Assembly: GCA_021776095.1 (NCBI GenBank)
Contig: JAJFGO010000021.1
Span: 186,001 to 250,000, forward strand
Direction of reading: 5' to 3'
Origin: Kiloniellaceae bacterium
GTDB taxonomy: Bacteria > Pseudomonadota > Alphaproteobacteria > Kiloniellales > J153
DNA: 64,000 bases
The notes below the pieces were generated by a model. It made no database searches and had not been told where the DNA came from. It worked only from the letters and a program-made list of their open reading frames with translations. Shown here piece by piece: positions 46,392 through 56,211 of the stretch. Every line of letters begins with the position of its first letter. The first letter of the stretch is position 1. The translations under genes and the position numbers were made by a program.

Positions 46392-48029
46392 ATGCTCATC
46401 GTCGGCGCTGTTTTTGGCGCGGTTCTCGCTTTCTTTTTTGTGGCCGGGCCACTTACCATTGCTATGGCGATAGCCTTGGGTTTATCGCCGGTGTTACCGA
46501 TTATCGGCGCCTTGACCCAGTGGCAGTTTCCGGTTGGTACGGTCGGTGCCACGATCAGTCACATACTCTTCTCTCTCATCGCCTATGTTATGGCGGCGAT
46601 CGCCACACCCGTGCCTACCGCAGGTCCCGTCACAGTGACCCCGGCCGGGGGCGGCTTTCCGATGCCTTGGGAATTCTTCGAAAGATTCGCCCGCGGCTGG
46701 CTGATCGGCATGAACGCGGTCGTGACGCTCACCCTGCCCTTCGCCCTGCCCTGGGTATTTTCCGGCCTACCGGCCGTTTCCCTATTGCTCGTGGCGGCAT
46801 CGCCACTCCTGGCGATCGCCGCGACATTCATAGCCGTGGTCATCGTGATCCCGGCATTTGCGCCTGGAGTGGCCGCGAACAGTGTCTATGCCGGCATTCT
46901 TGGCTGGACCGCCTGGATCTCACCGCCCACCTGGCCGGCGACCGGGCTGGGCTTGTTGGTTTGTATCGTCAATTCCATCACCGCCTTGTTCGGCGCGCCG
47001 GTGCGCTGGGTTCCTGAATTCTGGACCGGGTCCCTCATGACCCACGGCGGCATTCTCTATCCCTTCTGGCGCGCGCCCGCGGGTTACAATCTTGGCAACT
47101 TCTATTTTCTCGATCCGCGTATTGGCGCCACCACGCCGGAGTTCATACCACCCGCCGGCGGCATGGCCGGCGGCTTCATAGGGCTAACCGCCGACGGCGC
47201 CACGCTGCATGAAACCGGTCATACCTTGAACGCTGCCGCCTTCGGGAGCTGGTTTAACTACGTCGGCTGGGCCCATCAGAATTTCTTTCCACCCGGGTTG
47301 AACGGTGGGCCGCGCGCCTACGCGGAGGTCTTGGCGGAAGCACACCTGCGCGATTCCACACAGCCTTGGTTTCCATTCTGGGCGCCACCGGTTGGCCTAA
47401 CCGCTTTGACGCCGAACGCGCCACCGACCTTCGGTACCACAACCGTCGACGGGCTCCCCCCCGGTGCCTTCCTCAACTACAGTGCCGGGGCTAGTCTCAC
47501 GCTCAGCGGCGCCAGCGCCGACGCCGACAGCTATCCGGCGGCCACCCTGATACCTGGATCGCCGGCCACCGGCGTGCGCTGGGTCTTTACAACGCAACCC
47601 GCGGGCGCCGGTGCGGCCATTGCCGGCGCCACAACAGCGGCGACCACGGCGACGGTGCCGCGCGGCGGCGACTACACCCTGGCCTTCGTCGCGACGGACG
47701 GCGCCCAGTTACCCACTGCGGGCGCGCTAGTATTCACGCCAAAGGTGGTTGAGGCGGTTGTGTCTGTGCCTATCGTGGCCGTTGTCGACCAGCCATTTAC
47801 CGCCGATGGCTCCATGAGCACCGCCGGCGCCGATCTGGCGGGCGCAGCCTTGCCGCTGACCTTCGCCTGGTCCGTCGCGCCGCCCAGCGCGGTCATCGCC
47901 GACCCCACGCTGCCGATCATATCGGTTACGCCCAGCGAAACGGCGCCGCATGTTGTCACCTTGACGGTCACGGCTGCGGGCGCGGCCGGAACCAGTCATA
48001 CGGCCAGTAGCGCGGTTCCGGTGAGCTAA
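46392..48029 (+). CDS. Membrane protein with HExxH motif and Ig/PKD-like tail
   Basis: 545 residues with a ribosome binding site GGGAGAGGGG upstream. The N-terminal third has about five or six hydrophobic helices (about residues 1-200). The middle has H273-E274-T-G-H277, an HExxH zinc-protease signature, followed by AAFGSWFNYVGWAHQNFF, with E312 or E316 in YAEVLAE as a possible third ligand. The C-terminal half (from ~340) is two beta-sandwich domains with PKD-like FAWSVAPPSA and VTLTVTAAGA. I recall HETGH-x-AAFGS proteins in other bacteria but not a function. Paired with the next gene. Confidence 0.6.
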   Translation: MLIVGAVFGAVLAFFFVAGPLTIAMAIALGLSPVLPIIGALTQWQFPVGTVGATISHILFSLIAYVMAAIATPVPTAGPVTVTPAGGGFPMPWEFFERFARGWLIGMNAVVTLTLPFALPWVFSGLPAVSLLLVAASPLLAIAATFIAVVIVIPAFAPGVAANSVYAGILGWTAWISPPTWPATGLGLLVCIVNSITALFGAPVRWVPEFWTGSLMTHGGILYPFWRAPAGYNLGNFYFLDPRIGATTPEFIPPAGGMAGGFIGLTADGATLHETGHTLNAAAFGSWFNYVGWAHQNFFPPGLNGGPRAYAEVLAEAHLRDSTQPWFPFWAPPVGLTALTPNAPPTFGTTTVDGLPPGAFLNYSAGASLTLSGASADADSYPAATLIPGSPATGVRWVFTTQPAGAGAAIAGATTAATTATVPRGGDYTLAFVATDGAQLPTAGALVFTPKVVEAVVSVPIVAVVDQPFTADGSMSTAGADLAGAALPLTFAWSVAPPSAVIADPTLPIISVTPSETAPHVVTLTVTAAGAAGTSHTASSAVPVS

Positions 48030-48041
48030 GGGGGACTGATC

Positions 48042-48797
48042 ATGGCATGTACCCTTCAGATCGGCGGGATCAATGGCGAAGCGGTGACCGGCGGCAGCTT
48101 GCCGACACAGCTACGGGTTTACGTTCGCCGTCAGGGCAACTGCGATCAGGTCGAAATCACCGTCCGCGTGACCCAGAACGGGCCCGCCATGTTCACGGCC
48201 GTGGCGGCGCCGGACAACAACGGCACGGCGACCGCCGGATTCATCGTCGAGCCACCGATATTCGCCTGTGGCTCGCCGCTTTGGGTCGAGGCGCGCTGCG
48301 CCGCCGGGGACGAATGCAGCGCGACCGCCCAGGTCTCCATAGACTGCAAGGCCCCCTCCGATGGGGGTCCAGGTGGGCCTAACAACGGCAATTGGCCCTG
48401 GCCGTTTCCGCCGCAGTTGTTTTGTCCCCTGATCGGCCGGGGCTTCACCCTGGCGCTATTTACCGGGATCGTCACCTTCCTTACCGGCGTTGCCATGGCG
48501 CTGCCGCCGGTGATCGGCGCCGGTGTCGCGATCGTGGTCGCCGCCTTCGGTATCCTCGCGGTCTGGCGGCACTGGTGCGCCATACCCTATTGCTATTTCT
48601 GGGGGGCGATCCTCTGGGTCTTGAAACGATGCCTGCTGGCCGGCGCGGTCCTGACCCTGTTCTTTGTCAGCGTCGCCACCTTGTTGTGCACCCTGGCCAT
48701 AGGCTTTGCCGCGGGCGTGGTCACAAACCGGCTCCGGAAAGCCCATTGCCATCTGCCCAGCATGACCACGCCGCTAACCCAATTGCCGTTGTGGTGA
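48042..48797 (+). CDS. Cys-rich Ig-like/four-TM membrane protein
   Basis: 251 residues. An N-terminal beta-sandwich (1-100) carries paired Cys (NCDQVEI, FACGSPL, ARCAAGDECSA). It is followed by a Pro/Gly linker with NGNWPWPFPPQLF. Then comes a membrane domain with about four helices (FTLALFTGIVTFLTGVAM and others), with many additional Cys (WCAIPYCYFW) and basic C-terminal residues. Starts 12 bases after the preceding gene, so probably co-expressed. No family recognised; likely the partner of the HExxH protein in an envelope complex. Confidence 0.55.
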   Translation: MACTLQIGGINGEAVTGGSLPTQLRVYVRRQGNCDQVEITVRVTQNGPAMFTAVAAPDNNGTATAGFIVEPPIFACGSPLWVEARCAAGDECSATAQVSIDCKAPSDGGPGGPNNGNWPWPFPPQLFCPLIGRGFTLALFTGIVTFLTGVAMALPPVIGAGVAIVVAAFGILAVWRHWCAIPYCYFWGAILWVLKRCLLAGAVLTLFFVSVATLLCTLAIGFAAGVVTNRLRKAHCHLPSMTTPLTQLPLW

Positions 48798-51641: not shown

Positions 51642-52643
51642 CTACATAAACAGCTTTTCGGACTCCATGCCCGCATAGAGATCAGCAACGAATTCGCCGT
51701 AACCGTTGTAAAGCTGGGTCGGCACGCGCTCGTCGGTGCCGATCACCCGCTCGCTGGCCTGGCTCCAGCGCGGGTGGGATACCTCCGGGTTCACATTGGC
51801 CCAGAAGCCGTATTCGCTGGCCTGGATCTCCTCCCAAAAGGACACCGGCCGCTGGTCGGTGAATTCGAAGCGCACGATCCCTTTGATCGACTTGAAGCCG
51901 TATTTCCACGGCACCGCCAGGCGCAAGGGGGTGCCGTTCTGTTTCGGCATGGCCTTGCCGTAAAGGCCGGTGGCGATGAAGGCCAGATCGTTGGTCGCCT
52001 CGGCCAGGGTCAGGCCCTCCACGTAAGGCCAGGGATACCAGGACGCCTTTTGGCCGCTGGCCACCTGTGGATTCTCGAAGGTCGCCATCTTGAGGTACTT
52101 GGCGCCGCCCAGGGGGCGGGCGAGATCGACCAGGGCCTTGAGGGGAAAACCGCTCCATGGCACGGCCATGGACCAGGCCTCGACGCAGCGATGCCGATAT
52201 AGCCGCTCCTCCAGGGGCATCTTGGCCAGGAGGTCGTCGATGTCGATCTCCATGGGCTTTTCGACCATGCCGGCGATGCTGACGGTCCAGGGGCGAATTG
52301 GCAGGGCTTGCGCCTTTTGCCAGATGTTCTTGGAAGAGCCGAACTCGTAATAATTGTTGTAGGTGGTGGCCACGTCCTCGGCGGTCAGTTCGCGGTCCAG
52401 GCCATAGCGCAGATTGCGTTGAACCGGGTAGAGCTTGGCACTGGGATCCGGTGCCAAGTCTCCGGCGGCCAATTGGGTCGCCTGGGCCGGGGCGTCGTCG
52501 CAGCCCGCCAGGAGCGCCCCTCCGCTCAACAGAATGGGCCCGGCCACCGCCATCTTCAGCAAACGCCGCCGGTCCTCATAGACCGCCTCGGGCGTGGCCG
52601 CGGATTCACGAATTTCCCAACCCCGTTTGATCTTGAGCAACAT
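51642..52643 (-). CDS. msrP: Methionine sulfoxide reductase catalytic subunit MsrP
   Basis: A 333-residue periplasmic molybdoenzyme exported by the Tat pathway, with DRRRLLKMAVAG as a twin-arginine-type signal (about 24-35) and a long hydrophobic stretch. The molybdopterin site includes YRHRCVEAWSMAVPWSG, whose Cys binds Mo, and GTPLRLAVPWKYGFKS. MsrP repairs oxidised methionines on envelope proteins, with electrons from the membrane heme protein MsrQ. No msrQ gene follows; a decayed histidine kinase fragment lies downstream. Its promoter should be in 52644-52846. Confidence 0.9.
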   Translation of the reverse strand: MLLKIKRGWEIRESAATPEAVYEDRRRLLKMAVAGPILLSGGALLAGCDDAPAQATQLAAGDLAPDPSAKLYPVQRNLRYGLDRELTAEDVATTYNNYYEFGSSKNIWQKAQALPIRPWTVSIAGMVEKPMEIDIDDLLAKMPLEERLYRHRCVEAWSMAVPWSGFPLKALVDLARPLGGAKYLKMATFENPQVASGQKASWYPWPYVEGLTLAEATNDLAFIATGLYGKAMPKQNGTPLRLAVPWKYGFKSIKGIVRFEFTDQRPVSFWEEIQASEYGFWANVNPEVSHPRWSQASERVIGTDERVPTQLYNGYGEFVADLYAGMESEKLFM

Positions 52644-52846: not shown

Positions 52847-53140
52847 TCAGTCGTCGTGACCGGCGATTTCGCCTTTGCGGTACAGGAATTCGTCGACCAT
52901 GGCCTCGAAATCCTTGTTGTTGCGGCGCATCCATTCCAGGACCATGCAGGCATGTTCCATTTCCTCGCGCATGTTGTGCAAGAGGATCTCCTTAAGCGCC
53001 TTGTCTTCGCAATCGTCGGCCCGCTGGCGATACCAATCGACCGCTTCCATCTCTTCCATCAGCGAGACGATGGCGTGATGCATGTTCAGGGTCTCTTGGC
53101 TCAGCCGCTCGCGCGGCGCGTGCAAACCTTCACTCGACAT
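52847..53140 (-). CDS. Encapsulated-ferritin-like (EncFtn) protein, no encapsulin nearby
   Basis: A 97-residue two-helix ferritin-like protein. E29, E30, E32, W36, Y37, E60 and H63 match the ferroxidase and di-iron positions of R. rubrum EncFtn (E31, E32, E34, W38, Y39, E62 and H65) at a constant offset of two, from memory. EncFtn oxidises Fe2+ and is normally loaded into encapsulin shells. Here no encapsulin gene is adjacent and the protein stops soon after the second helix, without the C-terminal targeting peptide. It probably works as a free open decamer, or with a shell encoded elsewhere. The gene is single, between msrP and a hydratase, on the same strand. Confidence 0.8.
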   Translation of the reverse strand: MSSEGLHAPRERLSQETLNMHHAIVSLMEEMEAVDWYRQRADDCEDKALKEILLHNMREEMEHACMVLEWMRRNNKDFEAMVDEFLYRKGEIAGHDD

Positions 53141-53213: not shown

Positions 53214-54005
53214 TTAGGGCACGATCTGGAGCCGGACCTCCCCCAGGGGGCCGAAATCCGCGCTCAGGTCGTCGCCGGCCGCGACATAGATGAAGGGGGT
53301 GACCACGCCCGTGGTCACGATATCGCCCGCCTTCAGGCCGCGCCCCTCAGCCGCACCCTGCCCGGCCAGCCAGGCCAAGGCGTCGAGCGGATGGCCCAGC
53401 GCGTTGGCCCCCGTCCCTCGGCCTTCCTCCCGCCCGTTGCGGGTGAGGACCACGGCCTGCGCCCCTAGGTCGAGGTCGCGCCAAGCGGTCCGTTCCGGCC
53501 CCAAAACCAGGCAGCCGTGCACGCCGTTGTCGGCAATCAAGTGAGGCGCCCCAACGGTCCGCCATGCCTCGCCGTAAGCGCTGGTGACAACCTCGATGGC
53601 CGGATAAACGCCGGCCACAGCCTCGGCCACATCGGCGCGCCGGTAACCGCCATCGCGCGGCGCCAGATCACGATCCAGGCGCACGGCGAACTCCGGCTCG
53701 ATCAGGCAGAAGTTGAGACCGGCCCTGGATATCCGGGCCGGGCTGGACAAGATCCCGTTGTCCGGCATGCAGCCAACGAAGGGTTCATCGAGGCCCAGAA
53801 ACGTCTGTGCGGCCTGGCTGGTGGCGCCGATCTTGAAACCGGCGATCCGGGCACCCGCACCCTCCGCCACCACGGCCGCCTGAATTCGGTAGGCGTCCGC
53901 GAGGTTCGCGGGCGCGCAGTCCTCAGGCAGTCTCGCGATCGGGCGGCACGCGCGCCGCGCCAAAAGTAGCAAATTCGCGGCGCGCTGCGCGGCCTCAGGC
54001 GTCAT
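53214..54005 (-). CDS. 2-keto-4-pentenoate hydratase-type (FAH superfamily) protein
   Basis: 263 residues, the size of MhpD/DmpE-like hydratases. Recognisable are GFKIGATS (57-64) and CLIEPEFAVRL with its metal-binding Glu-x-Glu. Further along are AIEVVTSAY and the final GLKAGDIVTTGVVTPF before AAGDDLSADFG. The family hydrates 2-oxopent-4-enoate or decarboxylates related oxo-acids in aromatic-compound breakdown, but no other meta-cleavage gene is nearby, so the substrate is open. The EF-G-like gene lies immediately upstream on the same strand (13 bases), so the two may be co-transcribed. Confidence 0.82.
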   Translation of the reverse strand: MTPEAAQRAANLLLLARRACRPIARLPEDCAPANLADAYRIQAAVVAEGAGARIAGFKIGATSQAAQTFLGLDEPFVGCMPDNGILSSPARISRAGLNFCLIEPEFAVRLDRDLAPRDGGYRRADVAEAVAGVYPAIEVVTSAYGEAWRTVGAPHLIADNGVHGCLVLGPERTAWRDLDLGAQAVVLTRNGREEGRGTGANALGHPLDALAWLAGQGAAEGRGLKAGDIVTTGVVTPFIYVAAGDDLSADFGPLGEVRLQIVP

Positions 54006-54017
54006 GGGCGATCCGCT

Positions 54018-56054
54018 CTAACGCGCATCGTCGGAGCGCCGCTCCTCGATTACCTTTTCGGCCGGGCGCCCGGTCAATTCCTGAAGATGATCGAAGCTCC
54101 ACTCGAAGCTGCCGACCCCGAAGGTCAGGGAGCGCAATTCGACGATCAAGTCCTGCAATTCGGCCTGGGGCAAATTGCACTTCAATTCGTCCCAACCGTC
54201 CCAGTCCGCTTTGGTTTCGAAGCCTAGGATCTGTCCGCGCCGGCCGCTGACCAGACCGTGGATCTTGGAAGTGAACTCGTTCGGCACCGAGATCGTTACA
54301 CTGTAGATCGGCTCCAGGAGAACCGGCTGGCAGTTGGGCATGCCCTCCGACATGGCCAAGCGCCCAGCGGTCTTGAACGCCATGTCGGAACTGTCGACCG
54401 AGTGATACTGGCCGTCGAACAGGGTGACCCCCACATCGACCACCGGAAAGCCAAGCGGGCCGCGCTGCAGATATTCTCGGGCGCCGGTTTCGACCGCCGG
54501 GATGTATTGTCGCGGAACCGAGCCGCCGACGATTTTGTCGACGAATTCAAAACCCTTGCCACGCGGCAGGGGCTGGATCTCGACATGCACGTCGCCGAAC
54601 TGCCCGTGCCCGCCGCTCTGCCGCTTGAAACGGGAATGCTGCGTGGTGCCGCGCCGGATGGTCTCCTTGTAGGCAGTCTGCGGCCGTTCGGTTTCGACCT
54701 CCACATGGTACTTGCTGTTCAGGCGATCGACCGCAAGCCGCAGGTGAATCTCGCCCTGGCCCCACAGCACCATCTGATGGGTGTCGGCGATGTGCTCCAG
54801 AACCAGGGAGCAATCCTCCTCGATCAGCTTGCCGATGCTGCCGGTCAGCTTCACTTCGTCTTGCCGGTTTTTCGGCGTGACCGCCACGCCGAAGACCGGT
54901 TTGGGCGCCGCCGGCCAGGCCATACCGGACTCCTCGACTCGTTCGCCGTCTCGCATGAGATCGCCGGCTTGCGGGTGTTCCATGCGGCCCAGGGCAACCA
55001 GTTCGCCCTCACCCGCCTCGGCAATCTTTTGGTTGTCCGGGCCCATCATGCGATAGAGGCCCGACACGCGTTCTCCGCCCAGGGTCATGCCGTCCTTGGC
55101 GACGCCATTCCAGACCCGCGCCAGGGTGACTTTTCCGGTATGGGCCTGATGATAGATCCGGATAACCGAGGCCGTGAATTCCTCGCCCAGCGGCACGCCC
55201 AGCCGTTCCGCCGTCTTGGCGGCCGCTGGGGTTTCGTGGCGCAAGGCCTTCCACAGGCGGGTAATGCCGTGGCTGGCCTCGGCCGAGCCGAACAACACCG
55301 GAACAATCAAATCTTCCTGCAGGTCCTTGGTCAGTTGCCCGTAGATTTCCTCCGTCGCGGGAATCTTGTCTTCGAGCAACTGCTCGAGCAGCGTGTCGTC
55401 GTAATCGGCCAGGGATTCGAGCATATCCTGGCGCGCTTCGTCCTCGCGGTCCTTAACTGCCTCGGGCATGGCAACGAGATCTGAGGCCGCGCCTTCCTTG
55501 TAGCGATAGGCCCGTTCGCTCACCAGATCGACGAAACCCTCGAGCTGCTCGCCGTTGCGTATGGGCACTTGGCGCAGCACCAGGGGTTTGGAGGACACCG
55601 CCTGCAGCGATTCCAGAAGGTCGCGCACGCGCACCTCGGTCTTGTCCATCTTGTTGACGAACAGGATGTGCGGAATCTTGTAGTCGTCTAAGATCTTGAA
55701 AATCGGCGCCAGGGTCAGAGCCCGGCTCGGCTCCGGCTCGGCCACAATGATCGCCACGTCGGCGGCCATGAGCGCCGCGTTACGTTCCTGACTCAATTCG
55801 ACGGAGCCCGGGCAATCGATAAAAGACCAGCTGTCGCCCAAATAGTCGCAACGCGCGACGTTGGGCTCGACTGTCATCTGACGTTCGCGCGCCTCGGGCG
55901 AGGCGTCGCCCAGGGTGTTGCCCTGGGGCACGCTGCCCTTGCGCTGGGTCGCCTCGGCCGCGAATAAAAGGGCCTCCAGGAGGGTCGTCTTGCCGCTGGT
56001 ATAAGGCCCCACGAGTACGGCGCAGCGCGCCGTCTTGGTCTCCCGTCCGGTCAT
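54018..56054 (-). CDS. EF-G-like translational GTPase (EF-G paralogue)
   Basis: 678 residues from ATG 56054 (GGGAG six bases upstream; a TTG at 56060 is less likely). GTPase motifs: G1 GPYTSGKTTLLEAL, G3 DCPGSVEL and G4 NKMDK. Domains II-V follow, with a domain IV segment SGGHGQFGDVHVE and VSGRRGQILGFETKADWDG near the end. The P-loop GPYTSGKT differs from the AHIDAGKT of EF-G, so it is the EF-G II-like paralogue family whose function is uncertain. The hydratase gene follows 13 bases downstream. Confidence 0.88.
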   Translation of the reverse strand: MTGRETKTARCAVLVGPYTSGKTTLLEALLFAAEATQRKGSVPQGNTLGDASPEARERQMTVEPNVARCDYLGDSWSFIDCPGSVELSQERNAALMAADVAIIVAEPEPSRALTLAPIFKILDDYKIPHILFVNKMDKTEVRVRDLLESLQAVSSKPLVLRQVPIRNGEQLEGFVDLVSERAYRYKEGAASDLVAMPEAVKDREDEARQDMLESLADYDDTLLEQLLEDKIPATEEIYGQLTKDLQEDLIVPVLFGSAEASHGITRLWKALRHETPAAAKTAERLGVPLGEEFTASVIRIYHQAHTGKVTLARVWNGVAKDGMTLGGERVSGLYRMMGPDNQKIAEAGEGELVALGRMEHPQAGDLMRDGERVEESGMAWPAAPKPVFGVAVTPKNRQDEVKLTGSIGKLIEEDCSLVLEHIADTHQMVLWGQGEIHLRLAVDRLNSKYHVEVETERPQTAYKETIRRGTTQHSRFKRQSGGHGQFGDVHVEIQPLPRGKGFEFVDKIVGGSVPRQYIPAVETGAREYLQRGPLGFPVVDVGVTLFDGQYHSVDSSDMAFKTAGRLAMSEGMPNCQPVLLEPIYSVTISVPNEFTSKIHGLVSGRRGQILGFETKADWDGWDELKCNLPQAELQDLIVELRSLTFGVGSFEWSFDHLQELTGRPAEKVIEERRSDDAR

Positions 56055-56211
56055 GTCCAACTCCCTGTGTTTATTTTCCTAGTCCCGGCTTGCGGCCCCT
56101 CCCACCACAAGCGGTTTCAGACATGTTTTCAAACTGAGGCGAAGGCGGCAACAGAAAACGCCCACAGATCCGATTCCGCAGCCCCCGGGGCTCACATTGC
56201 AGAAAAATTAA

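Follow-up and report, generated by a model that had tools for sequence, protein, structure and literature searches.

A short cassette on the forward strand of a 64,000-nucleotide stretch of Kiloniellaceae DNA (the window) encodes two membrane proteins, one of which carries an HExxH motif. Is this protein a metalloenzyme and, if so, what does it do and with which partner? The features that bear on the question are as follows.

46392-48029, +: P0001 gene, an open reading frame for a 545-aa multi-pass membrane protein with an HExxH core and a candidate PKD-like tail
46392-47012, +: N-terminal membrane region of P0001 (aa 1-207), with about five hydrophobic helices by hydropathy
47208-47222, +: HETGH (H273-H277), two putative zinc-binding His and a putative catalytic Glu; H, E and H invariant in four proteins
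47325-47339, +: ExxAE (E312-E316), candidate for the third zinc ligand and a supporting acid; both Glu invariant
47427-48026, +: C-terminal tail of P0001 (aa 346-545), two candidate PKD-like domains (weak PF22352 match, shuffle tests)
48042-48797, +: P0002 gene, an open reading frame for a 251-aa protein, Cys-rich in its N-terminal domain and with about four membrane helices

A two-gene cassette at a variable site

The start of P0002 lies 12 bases after the stop of P0001, and the coordinates, frames and spacing given for the pair proved exact. A purine-rich run resembling a ribosome-binding site precedes both starts, and the two genes are probably co-transcribed. A second species of the same genus (G001; the window genome is G000) carries both genes in the same order and at the same site. 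Its P0001 orthologue is 85% identical, with a dN/dS of 0.157 (0.109 for the core alone, i.e., purifying selection), and its P0002 orthologue is 94% identical, with a dN/dS of 0.090; both ratios lie within the range of neighbouring genes. P0001 and P0002 are real genes, both under purifying selection. Both have a lower GC3 (0.745 and 0.809, respectively) than the neighbours (0.81-0.89) and a lower dS (0.54 and 0.34, against 0.73-1.13), a pattern that would be in keeping with an insertion that is younger or was exchanged.

The cassette is flanked on its upstream side by genes for an ELM1-like protein, a 2OG-Fe(II) oxygenase-like protein and P0003 (636 aa, of no known family), and on its downstream side by trxB and a LysR regulator. 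Among the family members examined, the content of the ELM1-trxB interval differs. Three of them (G003, G004 and G006) lack both P0003 and the cassette at this site, G005 has the 2OG gene and P0003 and no cassette, and G008 has the 2OG gene and P0003 along with some 0.9 kb in which there may be a further open reading frame; the cassette was found only in G000 and G001. It is an accessory insertion at a variable site between the ELM1-like gene and trxB, not part of a conserved operon, and P0001 and P0002 are so far known together in only two related species.

The 2OG-Fe(II) oxygenase-like gene and P0003 (43708-46275, +) form a second unit that is present or absent at the ELM1-trxB site, P0003 being 71-84% identical in relatives. 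Elsewhere in the window, an EncFtn-like (encapsulated ferritin) gene (52850-53140, -; PF22277, E 5.8e-36) adjoins a molybdopterin oxidoreductase gene (51642-52643). The next large open reading frames upstream of it (53214-54005 and 54018-56060, -) we take, by eye, to encode a hydratase-type protein and an EF-G-like GTPase; neither has the look of an encapsulin shell, again judged by eye.

Distant homologues and a putative zinc site

Both proteins had been described as unfamiliar, and they proved to be so, neither having a match beyond chance in Pfam, PHROGs, NCBIfam, PADLOC or the PDB. The NCBIfam matches were at chance level or confined to the PKD region, and the PADLOC anti-phage defence models matched neither P0001, P0002 nor the homologues described below. 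We found no paper describing the P0001 family in the open-licence literature. Searched with profiles of the HETGH region, 398 genomes of the phylum, 385 of the class and 195 of another phylum yielded no convincing match. Two weak alphaproteobacterial matches, by eye a phosphate-transport-like permease (L029) and a polysaccharide-export-like protein (L048), were judged on reading to be due to chance. No relative of the family was found in viral contigs (profile and protein scans) or in plasmids and phages (tblastn), and a DNA pattern for the HExxH region matched only unrelated proteins in the viral contigs. In 246 Actinomycetota genomes, the profile returned two real matches (E 1.7e-9 and 3.4e-7). 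About 1,700 genome searches were made in all, and any rarity of the family refers to the groups sampled.

The two actinobacterial homologues, each with the coordinates of its own locus, are:

L051, 946-1830: unannotated actinobacterial protein
L052, 1474-2337, -: unannotated actinobacterial protein

These proteins (294 and 287 aa) are related to P0001 along their full length, which spans its membrane part and core, with 28-32% identity, BLASTP E values of 1e-18 to 1e-25 and shuffle z scores of 15-19. The membrane region of P0001 by itself is more similar to the homologues than are shuffled sequences, and a segment within it, LGWxxWxxPxxW (aa 170-181), is conserved as invariant columns. The homologues, of about 290 aa, share the membrane part and the five-residue site considered below; they lack the PKD-like tail, have different neighbours and are not accompanied by P0002.

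The initial annotation had described several membrane helices in P0001, followed by HETGH and an AAFGS...YAEVLAE stretch. All of these are present: about five helices by hydropathy within aa 1-207, HETGH at aa 273-277, AAFGS shortly after it and YAEVLAE at aa 310-316. It had also tied its reading to conservation of the motif, and HExxH is kept in the distant homologues. When the four proteins were aligned (two phyla, two of the four being close orthologues), 41 columns were invariant, and the only titratable residues (D/E/K/R/H) among them were H273, E274, H277, E312 and E316. That exactly these five should be conserved is striking, because P0001 is charge-poor, with only 31 charged residues (10 K/R and 21 D/E) in 545. 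An HExxH motif arose in 37 of 20,000 shuffles of P0001, so that its presence alone is uncommon; the conservation is the real evidence. Seen in an alignment of just four proteins, of which two are close, the retention of these five residues is the strongest evidence that we have, and it favours a real zinc site.

Gluzincin-type HExxH metallopeptidases, e.g., M48 and M78, take a further ligand from a downstream Glu that lies within ExxA(D/E/N). P0001 likewise combines HExxH with an invariant ExxAE, the first Glu lying 39 residues past H273 and helices being predicted at both motifs; this is the set expected for a putative gluzincin-type zinc site. The likeness is putative, and P0001 differs in matching none of the Pfam or NCBIfam profiles of these families and in placing its site after a bundle of about five helices. 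AlphaFold2 models were of low confidence, with a pLDDT of 31 for P0001 (two alignment rows) and 41 for the L052 homologue (four rows). They contained membrane helices, strands ahead of HExxH, a helix following it and another at ExxAE, a modelled secondary structure that is compatible with a zincin but no proof of one.

We are inclined to place P0001 in an uncharacterised family of zinc metalloenzymes anchored in the membrane, and to see in it most likely a gluzincin-type peptidase. A bundle of about five membrane helices would lead into a core whose zinc ligands are H273, H277 and either E312 or E316 and whose general base is E274; we infer both zinc binding and peptidase activity from the conserved residues. 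In the window species, the tail of two PKD-like domains would plausibly bind a substrate or a surface. P0002 would be a second multi-pass membrane protein that forms a complex with P0001, or is its substrate or regulator, and the pair may have a role in conflict or regulated processing. Supporting this reading are the full-length homology, the five residues kept, the purifying selection and the retention of the pair in two species. We also count in its favour that, in one of the two actinobacterial genomes (G1133), a gene for a 261-aa multi-pass membrane protein, read from an internal ATG, starts 22 bases past the stop of the homologue. Against it, no known peptidase family or solved structure matches, and the alignment holds four sequences that include a pair of close orthologues.

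Homologue neighbourhoods and alternative readings

The homologue in G1133 lies beside a contractile injection system (CIS) cluster that includes CIS_tube (PF19266), a TIGR02243 baseplate protein, a VgrG-related protein, a Tail_P2_I/TIGR02242-like tail protein and a PASTA protein. It also adjoins genes for a CHAT protein (PF12770, E 7e-21) and a caspase (PF00656, E 2e-22). This cluster (L054, 9917-16341) contains an HEAGHT membrane protein, a CHAT protein with an N-terminal membrane part, a caspase and an HERLH membrane open reading frame, next to the CIS genes. The last of these, a second HExxH membrane frame (HERLHVFQNRAFG; L054 15133-16341, +), looks similar to the family by eye; its hhalign E value was 0.18, and the kinship is unproven.

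This neighbourhood raises the possibility, which we put forward tentatively, that the family is an accessory of CIS or CHAT/caspase conflict modules, persisting as a stand-alone cassette in the window species. A membrane zinc protease might then process or receive an effector, or execute regulated cell death, a proposal that we regard as equally tentative. The position of the G1133 homologue among CIS genes and next to CHAT and caspase genes speaks for it, but this is only one of three loci. The CIS_tube marker was absent from G000, G001 and G1211 (draft genomes, one marker), and because it was found in G1133 only, the CIS link is a single case. Also against it, the neighbours of the G1211 homologue are a DUF1028-like and a polysaccharide-deacetylase-like open reading frame (named by eye), and those in the window are housekeeping-type genes. 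An HExxH protein associated with eCIS has been described, i.e., DUF4157 (PMC8213781). It has in common with our family the HExxH motif and, in one homologue, an eCIS neighbourhood, but its profile was not matched by P0001, L051 or L052, P0001 is a multi-pass membrane protein, and the window genome is negative for CIS_tube.

A related and similarly speculative idea is that of an undescribed gluzincin family, multi-pass in the membrane and sparsely distributed, working as a two-gene module with a membrane partner and serving conflict or contact-dependent processing. Its members might be deployed beside CIS and CHAT/caspase genes in actinobacteria and, equally conjecturally, as a stand-alone unit with PKD-like recognition domains in alphaproteobacteria.

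Somewhat less likely is that HExxH and ExxAE form the metal site of a membrane enzyme other than a peptidase, e.g., a lipid or envelope-polymer hydrolase, or a structural site. Such a pattern marks a metal site better than it marks a reaction, and both a peptidase family match and evidence of a substrate are absent. Nevertheless, the putative catalytic Glu, E274, is invariant, and HExxH with a downstream Glu is most often the signature of a metallopeptidase.

Peptidase_M56 proteins (BlaR1/MecR1) are organised as membrane helices, an HExxH motif and a C-terminal extra domain, a plan that P0001 shares. A sensor-protease of this kind, in which a ligand bound by the tail would switch on the membrane zinc protease to cut a regulator, is nonetheless an improbable model for P0001. 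No match to the Pfam Peptidase_M56 profile was found for P0001 up to an E value of 10, or for L051 and L052 up to 1. In P0001, unlike BlaR1, no membrane helix separates HExxH from the tail (hydropathy revealed no hydrophobic segment in aa 278-442), the homologues have no tail, and no regulator gene lies directly next to the cassette. That the two frames are chance or decaying sequence with a fortuitous motif is scarcely credible: the very narrow distribution and the lack of family matches could be read in that way, but the dN/dS values of both genes contradict it, as do the ribosome-binding-like runs before both starts and the distant full-length homologues of P0001.

If the site of the proposed gluzincin-type enzyme is active, P0001 would represent a membrane metalloprotease family that is missing from the copies of Pfam, NCBIfam, PHROGs and PADLOC searched, that occurs in at least two phyla, and that has one member near contractile-injection, CHAT and caspase genes. 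Such an enzyme would be defined and testable, with five residues to mutate, and a first profile of it could help to annotate proteins at present listed as hypothetical. Should the cassette prove no more than an orphan accessory, it would be of modest importance.

P0002, topology and the PKD-like tail

The N-terminal 125 residues of P0002 are rich in Cys, with six in the first 103 aa, and hydropathy shows about four hydrophobic segments in the protein. The Cys-rich character and the four helices in the initial annotation are thereby borne out, but not its Ig-like domain, family matches being at chance level in Pfam, PHROGs, NCBIfam, PADLOC and the PDB. No convincing homologue was found outside the genus in the genomes searched. 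Comparison with the Ig/TM parts of the CHAT and PASTA proteins of G1133 gave no support for a relationship, and there was no similarity to the membrane gene that follows the G1133 homologue. With P0002 having no detectable relative beyond the genus, it is its adjacency to P0001 that suggests a partnership.

PKD-like tails are normally located outside the cytoplasm. The active site of P0001 probably lies there too, and its tail may be exposed at the surface. The positive-inside rule gives an ambiguous topology: P0001 has few charges, and the actinobacterial members have arginines after the last helix, which would fit a cytoplasmic core.

The tail matched PF22352 (K319L-like PKD) with an E value of 0.012 and 16 bits, under the Pfam cut-off of 27. 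When its halves were compared with genuine PKD repeat proteins, the score of the first was reached by 0 of 1000 shuffles with both targets, and that of the second by 0 of 1000 with one target and 8 of 1000 with the other. The tail may be distantly related to PKD repeats, and the Ig/PKD-like domains originally proposed for P0001 narrow to a weak PKD likeness.

Two other frames with PKD-like repeats came to light. In one (L003; G029:C312), seven such repeats are joined directly to an amidohydrolase domain in a single open frame, either an unusual fusion or an assembly artefact. The other, in the window genome (G000:C80; L009, 32557-33105 of the contig), is a 2051-aa open frame with PKD repeats and a Laminin_G_3 domain, and has distant similarity to the P0001 tail.
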